The notes beneath the pieces were generated by a model. The model searched no databases. It saw nothing but the letters and a program-made list of their open reading frames with translations, and had not been told where the DNA came from. The translations under genes and the position numbers were made by a program. Positions 19,502 to 23,249 of a stretch of 64,000 nt of DNA are shown here, one piece after another (the stretch's first letter is position 1; each line of letters opens with the position of its first letter). Source of the stretch: Jannaschia marina (lineage in GTDB: Bacteria > Pseudomonadota > Alphaproteobacteria > Rhodobacterales > Rhodobacteraceae); contig NZ_JABVAX010000001.1 in assembly GCF_013404595.1 (NCBI RefSeq), forward strand, positions 372,001-436,000. The letters are read 5' to 3'.

Positions 19502-19526
19502 CATCCGCCGGAACCGGTCCGCATGA
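19494..19526 (+). other. Bridging mini-ORF between ATPase and permease genes
   Basis: ATG 19494 begins inside the last codons of the ATPase gene (ATGTCTGA) and reads MSDIRRNRSA to a TGA that overlaps the permease ATG at 19523 (ATGA). A ribosome ending on the ATPase could restart here and be delivered to the permease start, whose own ribosome site is weak. The peptide itself is probably irrelevant. Similar bridges occur at 53779, 55763 and 62015. Confidence 0.35.
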
Positions 19527-20605
19527 TCCACCTCGAGCGCCGCCCGACCCCCTCGCGCGCCTGGGGCGCGGCCTCCCCGCTGCTGGCGGTCGCGCTGACG
19601 ATGGTGGCGGGCGGGCTGATGTTCGCGGCGCTCGGCAAGGACCCACTGGAGGCACTGCGCACGATCTTCTGGGATCCGGTGCTGGGCGAATTCGCGTGGT
19701 ATTTCCGCGGCCAGATCCTCGTGAAGGCCGGACCGCTCATCCTGATCGCCGTGGGCCTCGCGCTCGGCTTCCGCGCGGGCGTCTGGAACATCGGGGCCGA
19801 GGGGCAGTACATCGTCGGTGCCATCTGCGGCGCGGCGGCGGGGCTGGTCTTCTATCCGACCGACAGCGTGCGGATCTTTCCGTTCATGGTCGTCTTCGGT
19901 GCCTTCGGCGGCATCGCCTGGGCGATGATCCCGGCGCTTCTGAAGGTGCGGCTCGGCACCAACGAGATCCTGGTGTCGCTCATGCTCGTCTACGTGGCCG
20001 AGAACCTGCTCGCCTCGGCCGCCGTGAACTGGCTGCGCAACCCCGACGCTGTGGGCTTCCCCGGCTCGCGCAACCTTGCCCGGTGGGACGCCTCGGCGAA
20101 CCTCGAACTTATCGAGGGCACCGGCATCCACTGGGGGGTCGTCGCGGCCCTGATCGCGGTGATCTTCGCCCATGTCATGCTGACGCGGCACCTGATGGGC
20201 TTTCAGGTGCGGCTGGCCGGAGCCTCGCCGCGGGCGGCCCGCTTCGGCGGGGTCAACACCGGCCGCCTTATCGTGCTCTGCCTCGGCTTTTCCGGGATGC
20301 TGGCCGGGATGGCGGGCCTCTTCGAGGTGACGGGTCCGGCGGGCCAGATCTCCATCGACTTCGCATCCGGATACGGCTTCACCGCGATCATCGTGGCTTT
20401 CCTCGGGCGGCTCAACCCGCTCGGCATCGTCGCGGCGGGGCTCCTGATGGCGCTGACCTACGTCGGCGGCGAGGCGGCCTCCGCGAACCTCGGCCTTCCG
20501 TCGGCGGCGATCTCGGCCTTCCAGGGGATGCTGCTGTTTTTCCTGCTGGCGGTGGACGTCCTGACGAACTTCCGGGTCAGGGTCGGCAAGGGGGTGGCGG
20601 CGTGA
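19523..20605 (+). CDS. BMP-family ABC importer permease, first subunit
   Basis: A 360-aa inner-membrane permease with eight to ten predicted helices. The segments FRAGVWNIGAEGQYIVGAICG and IPALLKVRLGTNEILVSLM are the conserved core of the YufP/NupP type, and FGGVNTGRLIVLCLGFSGMLAGMAG follows the coupling-helix region. It pairs with the second permease at 21202 to form the channel driven by the double ATPase. A small membrane gene overlaps its end (GTGA), and a hairpin-rich gap separates it from the second permease. Confidence 0.93.
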   Translation: MIHLERRPTPSRAWGAASPLLAVALTMVAGGLMFAALGKDPLEALRTIFWDPVLGEFAWYFRGQILVKAGPLILIAVGLALGFRAGVWNIGAEGQYIVGAICGAAAGLVFYPTDSVRIFPFMVVFGAFGGIAWAMIPALLKVRLGTNEILVSLMLVYVAENLLASAAVNWLRNPDAVGFPGSRNLARWDASANLELIEGTGIHWGVVAALIAVIFAHVMLTRHLMGFQVRLAGASPRAARFGGVNTGRLIVLCLGFSGMLAGMAGLFEVTGPAGQISIDFASGYGFTAIIVAFLGRLNPLGIVAAGLLMALTYVGGEAASANLGLPSAAISAFQGMLLFFLLAVDVLTNFRVRVGKGVAA

Positions 20606-20880
20606 GCGGCGCGACGGAGGAACGCGGAGTGGTCCGCCTTGTCCCCGTCTTCGCGGTCTGCGTCCTACTTGGTGCGACGATTCTTGCCCTGCCGCTGGTC
20701 CTGGCGGTGGGAACGTTCGGGGTCGCCCCGGTCGTGACGCTCGTGGCGCTGTCCTGTGCGGCGGGGCTCGCCTTGGCGCGCGGTCCCGGCGCGGCCCGCC
20801 TGCGGGCAGTCCTCGGAGGCGCGGCCTGCGGCGCGGGCGCGTCGCTTGTCGCGGTCATCCTGATGTTGGGTGGGAGCTGA
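20602..20880 (+). CDS. Small membrane protein between the two permease genes
   Basis: A 92-aa frame from GTG 20602, overlapping the permease stop as GTGA. It is almost entirely hydrophobic, with about three membrane segments: VPVFAVCVLLGATILALPLVL, GVAPVVTLVALSCAAGLALA and LGGAACGAGASLVAVILML, linked by a short Arg-rich loop. I recognise no family. Position inside a transporter operon, tight coupling and composition support a real gene, perhaps an accessory or stabilising subunit of the importer. BMP-type importers usually have no such component. Confidence 0.65.
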   Translation: MSGATEERGVVRLVPVFAVCVLLGATILALPLVLAVGTFGVAPVVTLVALSCAAGLALARGPGAARLRAVLGGAACGAGASLVAVILMLGGS

Positions 20881-20993
20881 CATGGACGTGCATGGCCTGT
20901 CTCATCCTCCAGTAGCGGAGGCAGATTTTCGGATTTGGATGCTCGCAACCCAGTCGGAACGGAGGTCCGCGACTGCCCGGGTGGGCGCGGACG

Positions 20994-21140
20994 TGCCCGC
21001 CATGGGGCGGGCAGGCGCGTGCCGATCCGCGCGGCGGATCGGCGAAGCAGTGGCGGCGGACGCCGCGACAAGTCCACGCCCGATGGGTACCATCGGGCAG
21101 CCCCCGACCGCCCCCATGGGCGGGGGCAAAGCCCCCCCCC
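20994..21140 (+). repeat. Array of perfect hairpins and a C9 tract in the intra-operon gap
   Basis: The 321-bp gap between the small membrane gene and the second permease holds consecutive perfect stem-loops: 20994-21013 (TGCCCGCC, loop ATGG), 21021-21043 (GCCGATCCGC, loop GCG), 21078-21098 (GCCCGATGG, loop GTA), and two competing stems at 21108-21123 (CCGCCC, loop CCAT) and 21122-21136 (GGGGGC, loop AAA). A run of nine C follows at 21132-21140. Such structures inside an operon can block 3' exonucleases or cause partial termination, giving different amounts of upstream and downstream products. The C9 run is prone to slippage. Confidence 0.7.
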
Positions 21141-21201
21141 GCGGCCGGGGACTGCCCTTACCGCGTCATGCCGACATTCGATGCCAGTCGAGGAGACAGA
21201 G

Positions 21202-22131
21202 ATGGACCTGAGCAGCATCTCCCCCGCCCTCCTCATCGCCTCCCTGATGGTGGCCGCCACGCCGATCCTGCTCGCCGCGCTCGGGGAGATGGTGGTCGAG
21301 AAGGCCGGCGTGCTGAACCTCGGGGTCGAGGGCATGATGATCATGGGGGCCGTCTGCGGCTTCATCGCCGGAGTGGAGAGCGGATCGCCCTGGCTGGGCT
21401 TCCTGTCGGCCGCCGTAGGAGGCGCGGCGATGGCGCTCCTCTTCGGCGTGCTCACGCAGGTGCTGCTGTCGAACCAGGTGGCGACGGGGCTTGCGCTGAC
21501 GCTCTTCGGCCTCGGGCTGTCGAGCCTCCTCGGCCAAGGCTACGTTGGCATCAAGACGAACACGCTGGGCCGGATCGACCTCGGGCCGCTGACGGACATC
21601 CCCTTCTTCGGCCGCGTCCTCTTCGGGCATGACCCGATCGTCTATCTCTCGATCCTCCTCGTCCTCGGCGTCTGGGCCTTCCTCAAGTACACCCGCGCGG
21701 GCCTCGTCCTGCGCGCGGTGGGCGAGAGCCACGACGCCGCCCATGCGCTCGGCTACGGCGTGCGGCGCGTGCGGCTGATGGCGATCGCCTTCGGCGGGGC
21801 CTGCGCGGGCCTCGGCGGGGCCTATCTCAGCCTCGTGCGGGTGCCGCAGTGGACCGAGGGCATGACCGCCGGCGCGGGCTGGATCGCGCTCGCCATCGTC
21901 GTCTTCGCCAGCTGGCGGGCGGGCCGCGTTCTGGCGGGTGCCTATCTTTTCGGCGGGATCACCGTCCTGCAGCTCAACCTCCAGACGGCGGGGGCACGGG
22001 TGCCGGTCGAGCTTCTGTCGGCCGCCCCCTATCTTGTCACCATCCTCGTGCTCGTGCTTATTTCGCTGCGCGCCGGGCGAGGCGGGGATGCGCCCGCCTG
22101 TCTCGGCAAACCATTCCACGCCTCGAGTTGA
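21202..22131 (+). CDS. BMP-family ABC importer permease, second subunit
   Basis: A 309-aa inner-membrane permease of the YufQ/NupQ type with about eight to nine helices. TPILLAALGEMVVEKAGVLN, LGVEGMMIMGAVCGFI and LRAVGESHDAAHALGYGV (cytoplasmic coupling loop) are conserved in the family, and GAGWIALAIVVFASWRAGR follows. ATG 21202 has GGAGACAGAG upstream. It lies after the hairpin-rich gap, 29 bp before the binding-protein gene, and completes the channel with the permease at 19523. Confidence 0.93.
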   Translation: MDLSSISPALLIASLMVAATPILLAALGEMVVEKAGVLNLGVEGMMIMGAVCGFIAGVESGSPWLGFLSAAVGGAAMALLFGVLTQVLLSNQVATGLALTLFGLGLSSLLGQGYVGIKTNTLGRIDLGPLTDIPFFGRVLFGHDPIVYLSILLVLGVWAFLKYTRAGLVLRAVGESHDAAHALGYGVRRVRLMAIAFGGACAGLGGAYLSLVRVPQWTEGMTAGAGWIALAIVVFASWRAGRVLAGAYLFGGITVLQLNLQTAGARVPVELLSAAPYLVTILVLVLISLRAGRGGDAPACLGKPFHASS

Positions 22132-22160
22132 ACGGGGCGGGTTCCAACGGGAGATCACGC

Positions 22161-23249
22161 ATGACACTCAAGACCCTTCTGGCCGGCGCGATGGCGCTCG
22201 GCCTCGCCACGCCGGCGCTGGCCCAGGACGATCCGGTGAAGGTCGGCTTCATCTACGTCGGGCCGATCGGCGACGGCGGCTGGACCTACCAGCACGATCA
22301 GGGCCGCCTCGCGGTCGAGGAGCATTTCGGCGACGCGGTCGAGACCGTCTATCAGGAGAGCGTGCCGGAAGGCGCGGACGCCGAGCGCGCGATCACCCAG
22401 ATGGCGCTGCAGGGGGCGGACCTCATCTTCACCACGTCGTTCGGTTACATGGATGCGACCAACGCCGTCGCCGCCAAGTTCCCCGACGTGAAGTTCGAGC
22501 ACGCCACCGGCTTCAAGCGCGAGCATCCGAACGTCTCGACCTACGATGCGCGCTTCTACGAGGGCCGTGCCGTGACGGGCACGATCGCCGGGCATCTGAC
22601 CGAGACGAACAAGATCGGCTATATCGCCTCCTTCCCGATCCCCGAGGTCATCCAGGGAATCAACTCGTCGTTCCTACACGCGCAGAAGGTGAACCCCGAC
22701 ATCGAGATGGTCGTGACTTGGGCCTACACCTGGTTCGACCCCGCGAAGGAGGCCGATGCCGCCCGCGCCATGATCGACCAGGGCGTCGACGTGATCCTGC
22801 AGCACACCGACTCGACGGCCCCGCAGGCCGCCGCGCAGGAAGCCAACGAGAACGGCGGCCGCGTCTTCACCTTCGGTCAGGCCTCCGACATGGCGGAGTT
22901 CAAGCCGACGCCGCGCGTCGCATCCATCATCGACGACTGGTCGCCCTATTACATCGAGCGCGTCCAGGCCGTGATCGACGGCACCTGGGAGCAGCAAGCG
23001 AGCTGGGGCGGGATGCCCGAGGGCGAGGTCGTCATCGGTGAGATCACCGATGCGGTCCCGGCCGAGGTGAAGGCCGAGGCCGAAGCGATGATCGCCGCGA
23101 TCACCGCGGGCGAGTACCACCCGTTCACCGGCCCGATCAATCGCCAGGACGGCTCGGCCTGGCTCGCCGAGGGCGAGGTCGCCGAAGACGGCGCGCTCCT
23201 CGGGATGGACTTCTACATCGAGGGGCTGACGGGCGACATTCCGAACTGA
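22161..23249 (+). CDS. BMP/PnrA-type substrate-binding lipoprotein-family protein of the ABC importer (periplasmic)
   Basis: A 362-aa periplasmic binding protein. The first 22 residues are a signal peptide (TLKTLLAGAMALGLATPALAQ, no lipobox Cys), then KVGFIYVGPIGDGGWTYQHDQG, the BMP-domain start whose aromatic residues contact the ligand. FTTSFGYMDATNAVAAKFPDV and the ILQHTDSTAPQAAAQEANE hinge region follow. PnrA-like members bind purine nucleosides, and the xdhABC link fits a purine ligand. ATG 22161 has GGGAGA upstream. It is the last gene of the operon; a terminator-like hairpin lies 21 bp after the stop. Confidence 0.94.
   Translation: MTLKTLLAGAMALGLATPALAQDDPVKVGFIYVGPIGDGGWTYQHDQGRLAVEEHFGDAVETVYQESVPEGADAERAITQMALQGADLIFTTSFGYMDATNAVAAKFPDVKFEHATGFKREHPNVSTYDARFYEGRAVTGTIAGHLTETNKIGYIASFPIPEVIQGINSSFLHAQKVNPDIEMVVTWAYTWFDPAKEADAARAMIDQGVDVILQHTDSTAPQAAAQEANENGGRVFTFGQASDMAEFKPTPRVASIIDDWSPYYIERVQAVIDGTWEQQASWGGMPEGEVVIGEITDAVPAEVKAEAEAMIAAITAGEYHPFTGPINRQDGSAWLAEGEVAEDGALLGMDFYIEGLTGDIPN

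Follow-up and report, generated by a model that had tools for sequence, protein, structure and literature searches.

The window, the whole stretch of 64,000 nucleotides of Jannaschia marina DNA that was analysed, contains a purine-importer operon with a long gap ahead of its second permease gene. Pfam searches of the neighbours other than the XdhA-like gene identified two BPD_transp_2 permeases and a BMP binding protein, along with an ABC ATPase, XdhC and a molybdopterin subunit of xanthine-dehydrogenase type. These neighbours fit the setting of XdhABC, ATPase, permeases and binding protein described in the first-pass annotation, and the flanking genes scanned were intact members of their families. 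The genes next to the gap are as follows.

19523..20605, + strand: permease 1 (BPD_transp_2; Pfam PF02653, E 4.4e-38)
20602..20880, + strand: hydrophobic ORF of 92 aa after permease 1, weakly supported, with neither a Pfam nor an NCBIfam match
21202..22131, + strand: permease 2 (BPD_transp_2; Pfam PF02653, E 2.9e-38)
22152..23249, + strand: BMP-type substrate-binding protein (Pfam PF02608, E 2.7e-52)

The gap begins at 20881 because the 92-aa ORF ends at 20880, and extends to the ATG of permease 2 at 21202 (20881-21201, 321 bp), with a Shine-Dalgarno-like GAGGAGA read from the sequence at 21190-21196. ORFs of 85-94 aa with the same start point as the 92-aa ORF were present in five relatives and absent from others; in four (G002, G004, G007 and G013) the ORF ends within a few nucleotides of the start of permease 2. 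Across 20 same-genus loci the distance between the permeases ranged from -1 to 739 nt, as estimated by a motif method that gives 575 for the window, against a true distance of 596 to ATG 21202. Neither a T-tailed terminator-like site nor a sigma-70-like site was found in 20400-21700, and a terminator or promoter of these types was rejected.

Hairpins were found at 20994-21013 (TGCCCGCC/GGCGGGCA), 21021-21043 (GCCGATCCGC/GCGGATCGGC), 21078-21098 (GCCCGATGG/CCATCGGGC) and 21122-21136 (GGGGGC/GCCCCC), in addition to an outer pair of 17-nt segments, 21095-21111 and 21141-21157, that are 88% complementary. In the predicted folds the same arms join different stems, yielding mutually exclusive pairings. 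The strong hairpins and alternative pairings reported previously are thus present in the sequence and in its folds. The 251 nt at 20960-21210 gave a folding energy of -149 kcal/mol, where dinucleotide shuffles gave -126.3 ± 5.1 (z -4.42), and none of 200 shuffles folded as well, in agreement with the earlier statement that the structure goes far beyond that of an ordinary gap. The hairpin array was real but had been drawn too narrowly; the structured feature spans 20955-21163.

Brought into the same orientation and aligned, the two parts of this feature follow one plan, indicating that they are two members of one family facing in opposite directions. Their coordinates are given below, together with scores for a search with model R1 (86 positions, three helices), both window copies being among the 28 rows that built it.

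20955..21044, + (RNA-like strand): copy II of the dispersed repeat (R1 hit 20958-21044, 38.2 bits, E 3.2e-5 in the window)
20980..21001, +: copy II inner hairpin P2 (20980-20988 with 20993-21001), from the sequence and comparison with the consensus
21021..21043, +: copy II side hairpin P3, 10 bp, perfect
21045..21076, no strand: linker of 32 nt between the inverted copies, defined by position; the P3 sides face each other
21077..21163, - (RNA-like strand): copy I of the dispersed repeat (R1 80.6 bits, E 2.3e-13 in the window)
21078..21098, -: copy I side hairpin P3 (GCCCGATGG-GTA-CCATCGGGC), from the sequence and pair counts
21095..21157, -: copy I long stem P1 (21095-21111 with 21141-21157) enclosing P2, from complementarity, fold and pair counts
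21118..21140, -: copy I inner hairpin P2 (21118-21127 with 21131-21140), AAA loop on the + strand, one arm being the C9 tract

The unit of 87-90 nt comprises a long stem (P1), an inner hairpin (P2), a six-base bulge and a side hairpin (P3), and is GC-rich (about 80%). On the RNA-like strand the order is the P1 5' arm GGGCAGCCCCCGGCCGC, P2 (GGGTGGGGGC-loop-GCCCCCGCCC), the bulge ATGGGG, the P1 3' arm and P3. A GCCC arm is common to P3 and P1; since this P3 arm overlaps that of P1, a full-length P3 cannot form together with the outermost P1 pairs. Folded singly, copies I and II gave z values of -3.0 to -3.8 on either strand, and copy II alone preferred the alternative hairpin at 20994-21013 over P2.

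Comparison of 1 kb around the gap with 60 relatives revealed that both pieces match many other places at roughly 80-90% identity. Copy I matched in seven of 20 same-genus genomes, its own included, and its ten best DNA matches outside the window (86-89% identity) were in G018, G012 and G015. G012 yielded 30 matches at about 23 distinct places, the repeat being palindromic so that some places match on both strands. Copy II matched in six of the 20, again including its own, convincingly only in G015 (88-89% to two other places) and G018 (76% to one); the matches in G002, G007 and G008 were short and chance-like (E 3e-4 to 6e-4). Searched with R1 at E <= 0.1, the genome that contains the window yielded three copies, namely copy I (1.4e-11), a further one located on contig C33 (1.1e-8) and, as a weak match at whole-genome scale, copy II (0.002).

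Among 100 relatives, R1 matches at E <= 0.001 were obtained in 27, all of them within the 60 of the same family and none within the 40 of other alphaproteobacterial families, with 1-18 matches per positive genome; weak copies were missed in this search because its filters were stricter and a limited number of candidates was scored. A pattern scan of 84,980 species, which catches one subtype only, returned 78 stretches, all but one in Rhodobacteraceae-type or unplaced alphaproteobacterial records as judged from record names that were not checked individually. The lone exception (L152) is labelled Nocardioides marinus, for which contamination or mislabelling is suspected. One pattern locus, L113, had no R1 match at E <= 0.001. 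Some R1 matches carry long inserts (L155:6922-7075, L106:5147-5305 and others of 131-141 nt), perhaps representing a larger variant. A blastn search of plasmids and phages with one copy returned nothing, and window queries matched 15 and 17 plasmid records; the low-complexity filter is suspected. Rfam gave no family match over the gap, and over nine copy-bearing loci its sole match was a weak one to CRISPR-DR20 (E 0.14; 26.2 bits, the gathering score being 42). With nothing over threshold in either scan, a known RNA family was rejected. No description of the repeat was found among the open-licence papers searched, including the available portions of PMC2267715, PMC12306157, PMC3733652, PMC8266576 and PMC10969869.

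Base pairing was assessed on alignment A1, whose 28 rows are not independent, two being the window copies and 14 coming from the single genome G012. The pairs counted follow the structure of the window copy. A1 omits three of 31 copies, namely L037 (inner part deleted) as well as L043 and L057 (truncated or misfit); the short matches L039 and L046 had been left out before alignment. P1, P2 and the inner part of P3 gave 88.5% paired cells compared with 79.4% in shuffles. Changes on both sides of a pair were observed at 18 of 32 pairs and in 61 cells, where shuffles gave 10.7 and 19.2, and none of 500 shuffles was as high on any of five measures. Controls with slid partners reached at most 11 pairs and 25 cells. 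A version with the full P3 in place of the outermost P1 pairs performed nearly equally (17 pairs, 53 cells), although double changes in the shared arm involve P1 more often than P3. In L002 and L042 three arms change together (GGAC/GTCC/GGAC and AGGC/GCCT/AGGC), so that either pairing is kept there.

The genomic position of the copies was determined from the pattern loci, using genes called by a crude codon model trained on ten window genes. Of 86 R1 matches, 82 in 75 loci were used after four that were long, weak or cut had been dropped (L106 5147, L107 6523, L119 and L155 6922). Among the 63 copies not close to a locus end, six overlap a called gene. A further 21 of the 82 matches, near a locus end or without a flanking gene, were skipped for orientation counts. 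The remaining 61 copies comprised 50 in co-directional, nine in convergent and two in divergent spacers, compared with 140, 30 and 62 among the 232 spacers of these loci that measure 100 nt or more (Fisher, co-directional excess p 0.0015, divergent avoidance p 2e-5). Exclusion of cimA sites and of Jannaschia 2-223 left 35, six and two of 43, with divergent avoidance at p 7e-4. Relative orientation among the 50 co-directional copies was split 29 to 21, and no strong conserved flank or target motif was found around the copies.

Comparison of orthologous sites provides evidence of turnover. The third copy in the window's own genome (L070:1465-2256, G000:C33) lies just past the bchL stop codon, in frame in the 5' end of bchM. 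The distance from bchL to the landmark YFD(R/G)TA is 170 nt here and 38, 38, 38, 38, 40, 40, 40, 51 and 89 nt in nine readable same-genus loci, from all of which the repeat is absent; three more loci lacked the second landmark, one lacked both, and six of the 20 genomes had no bch match. Relative to the four shortest same-genus loci the bchL-bchM interval is 132 nt longer, in frame, and BchM 44 codons longer; the match to the BchM model starts at residue 53. No target-site duplication was obvious by eye against the empty sites, the flanks being not identical enough to be sure.

Closely related strains also differ. At the rfbB-rfbD spacer of Leisingera plasmids (L187-L203), M602 carries an intact copy and M597, of the same species, has lost the inner palindrome. 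The copy of S122 has both arms of another type, that of L. thetidis is truncated, M658 possesses a different palindrome, and in M561 and S132 the copy adjoins an extra hydrolase gene; in S185 an acyltransferase gene and a 40-nt spacer stand in place of the copy. Variation was also seen on these plasmids at the spacer before a cystathionine gamma-lyase gene.

Several families of dispersed bacterial repeats invite comparison, among them Rickettsia palindromic elements, of which PMC3733652 and PMC10969869 make mention. In the available text of PMC3733652 and PMC8266576, REP and BIME elements of the GTAG and CGTC super-families are short, palindromic and dispersed, often as inverted dimers, and are found chiefly near 3' ends, where the neighbouring genes run in the same direction or converge; CGTC repeats common in alphaproteobacteria are likewise described there as having no linked transposase (PMC3733652). 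The repeat resembles REP/BIME elements as so described in being dispersed, extragenic and palindromic, in occupying co-directional and convergent spacers, in forming an inverted pair and, as with the CGTC repeats, in having no linked transposase. It differs from REPs, units of about 20-50 nt with a single stem of 5-13 bp, in its 87-90-nt unit of three helices, in its lack of a conserved GTAG or CGTC end tag and in its count of 1-18 R1 matches per positive genome. No invariant tag of either kind was found in the A1 consensus or flanks. The strings GTAG, CTAC, CGTC and GACG (CGTC on the other strand) occurred, position within the copy disregarded, in 0, 1, 4 and 14 of 28 A1 copies; GTAG, CGTC and GACG were present in 6, 6 and 17 of 86 A2 copies and in 0, 5 and 5 of 15 A3 copies. 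The Y1 transposase PF01797 is absent from the window's own genome and exceeded the cut-off in two of 23 element-positive family genomes compared with three of 28 element-negative ones. A RAYT-driven REP is not supported by these counts, which show no link between the repeat and Y1 transposases in the family. Together with the missing terminal tag, they make the usual REP mobiliser unlikely.

As MITEs and ERIC-like repeats are characterised in the accessible parts of PMC10969869, the repeat shares with them a non-coding, folding, intergenic unit under 500 bp in variable copy number. It is unlike MITEs in its GC content of about 80%; no target duplication was seen, and no parental insertion sequence was identified. 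Its P1 arms are inverted repeats that lie some nine columns inside one end, with P3 following the other. Paired copies 0.8-3.6 kb apart occur and were considered as candidate insertion-sequence ends, the genes lying between them being listed. Rickettsia palindromic elements (RPE) include in-frame copies inside genes, and one copy of the present repeat does likewise in lengthening BchM; unlike RPE, most of its copies are intergenic. The CcrM-associated repeats of Caulobacter are tied to GANTC methylation sites. Those repeats are also dispersed, intergenic and alphaproteobacterial, as cited in the available text of PMC10969869. GANTC occurred in none of 129 aligned rows of the dispersed repeat, and a repeat of that type was rejected.

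Taken together, these data indicate that the gap probably contains two inverted copies of a dispersed 87-90-nt Rhodobacteraceae repeat, REP- or MITE-like in behaviour, which spreads between intergenic sites and whose hairpins may act as operon punctuation. As neither a target-site duplication nor a mobilising enzyme was identified, mobility is read from the patterns at sites alone.

The first-pass annotation had instead suggested that the structure could set different expression for XdhABC, the ATPase and permease 1 and for permease 2 and the binding protein, which would make it an array specific to this operon, an attenuator or processing site. Such a device would accord with the position inside the operon, the strong folding with alternative pairings and the intact scanned flanking genes. 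However, the same repeat occupies many unrelated spacers in the family, and among 20 same-genus and ten other family loci R1 at E <= 0.001 matched the permease gap in the window genome and G001 only, that is in two of 20 and none of ten; the match in G001 is one copy without its inner part, and the gap of G015 holds a stretch palindromic by eye but without an R1 match. A repeat so common elsewhere and so rare in this gap does not support a device belonging to this operon. The variable gap length (-1 to 739 nt), the absence of a T tract and the presence of both orientations side by side further weaken the proposal, which we consider improbable.

The tract of nine C residues at 21132-21140, 61 bp before the ATG at 21202, was located exactly as first described; its length had been suggested to vary between cells. 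As the sole C run of seven or more in the window it might attract attention as a phase-variable switch, expression being altered by slippage. Its length alone is unremarkable because a first-order Markov model expects about 0.9 C runs of at least nine per 64 kb. The P2 arm of most other copies has a single base between C5 and C3, mostly A on the window's + strand; on the RNA-like strand this base is T in 22, C in three and G in three of the 28 A1 rows by a simple expression match, counted in A1 only because the scan pattern behind A2 demands T at this position. The longest G run on that strand reaches nine in the window copy, as against 4-6 in the remaining 27 A1 copies, and the substitution joining C5 to C3 leaves an unpaired position in the folded P2 of the window copy. 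Read from these aligned sequences, C9 arose by chance through a single substitution in the conserved P2 arm, one that breaks a pair. Given that one substitution accounts for the tract, that no supported coding frame covers it, that 61 bp separate it from the start codon, and that no length variants were seen in the single genome that has it, a slippage switch is very improbable indeed.

The recurrence of the repeat ahead of cimA bears on a further alternative, that of a conserved structured RNA with a dedicated function in punctuation or processing, selected at sites such as cysS-cimA and secondarily dispersed. In the pattern scan, 16 of the 75 loci examined have a copy immediately ahead of cimA (L101, L103, L109, L110, L111, L121, L125, L130, L144, L145, L146, L160, L163, L168, L173 and L175), and a called cysS was on the other side in 11 of 13 such sites inspected. 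A survey of cimA across 30 genera, which took the best 30 of 39 matches, revealed a copy (E <= 3e-4) in 11, each time inside the spacer between cysS and cimA, five of the 30 loci having no readable spacer. These counts and the strong compensatory change agree with selection for an RNA, as do the other, unrelated hairpins seen by eye in several copy-free cysS-cimA spacers (e.g. L208, L217, L220, L227 and L229). Against it, the copies before cimA face both ways (10 sense, six antisense), the preceding gene overlaps cimA in four of the 30 loci and leaves no spacer (two with a recognisable CysS end), and strains elsewhere lose or truncate copies while the genes are kept. The 100-nt spacer before cimA in the window's own genome had no R1 match. 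Recurrence before cimA in many genera could reflect a conserved function there rather than free spread. On balance a dedicated RNA that dispersed secondarily appears unlikely.

Under the preferred reading of a spreading intergenic repeat, the spacer would be transcribed on the way from permease 1 to permease 2, and each copy would fold in the mRNA on whichever strand is transcribed. The copies lie at places where transcription would cross them, whichever way they face, and they avoid divergent spacers, where promoters would lie. Hairpins within operons, between co-directional genes, affect mRNA in other bacteria, and the REPs of E. coli affect mRNA decay and translation near stop codons. By analogy, the hairpins in the permease gap may slow 3'-5' decay of the upstream message and may separate translation of permease 2 from that of the upstream gene. 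The simplest function would accordingly be that of passive mRNA hairpins, as for REPs, protecting the upstream message and separating the halves of the operon. Since the upstream ORF abuts permease 2 in four relatives, insertion would also remove close coupling; a Shine-Dalgarno-like sequence of its own is retained by permease 2.

On a broader and more tentative view, which we regard as possible rather than probable, the repeat may be a family-wide mobile structured element that has spread without a Y1 transposase, in which one arm has two alternative partners and which has been repeatedly recruited as operon punctuation (at cysS-cimA, rfbB-rfbD and the purine importer) and as coding sequence (in BchM). 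What had appeared to be an oddity of one operon is a structured repeat family, carried by nearly half (27 of 60) of the genomes sampled from a marine group that is abundant. Filled sites can be set beside empty ones, related strains show turnover and one gene has an in-frame insertion, so that spread without a RAYT enzyme and the tuning of operons by such repeats become directly testable questions.
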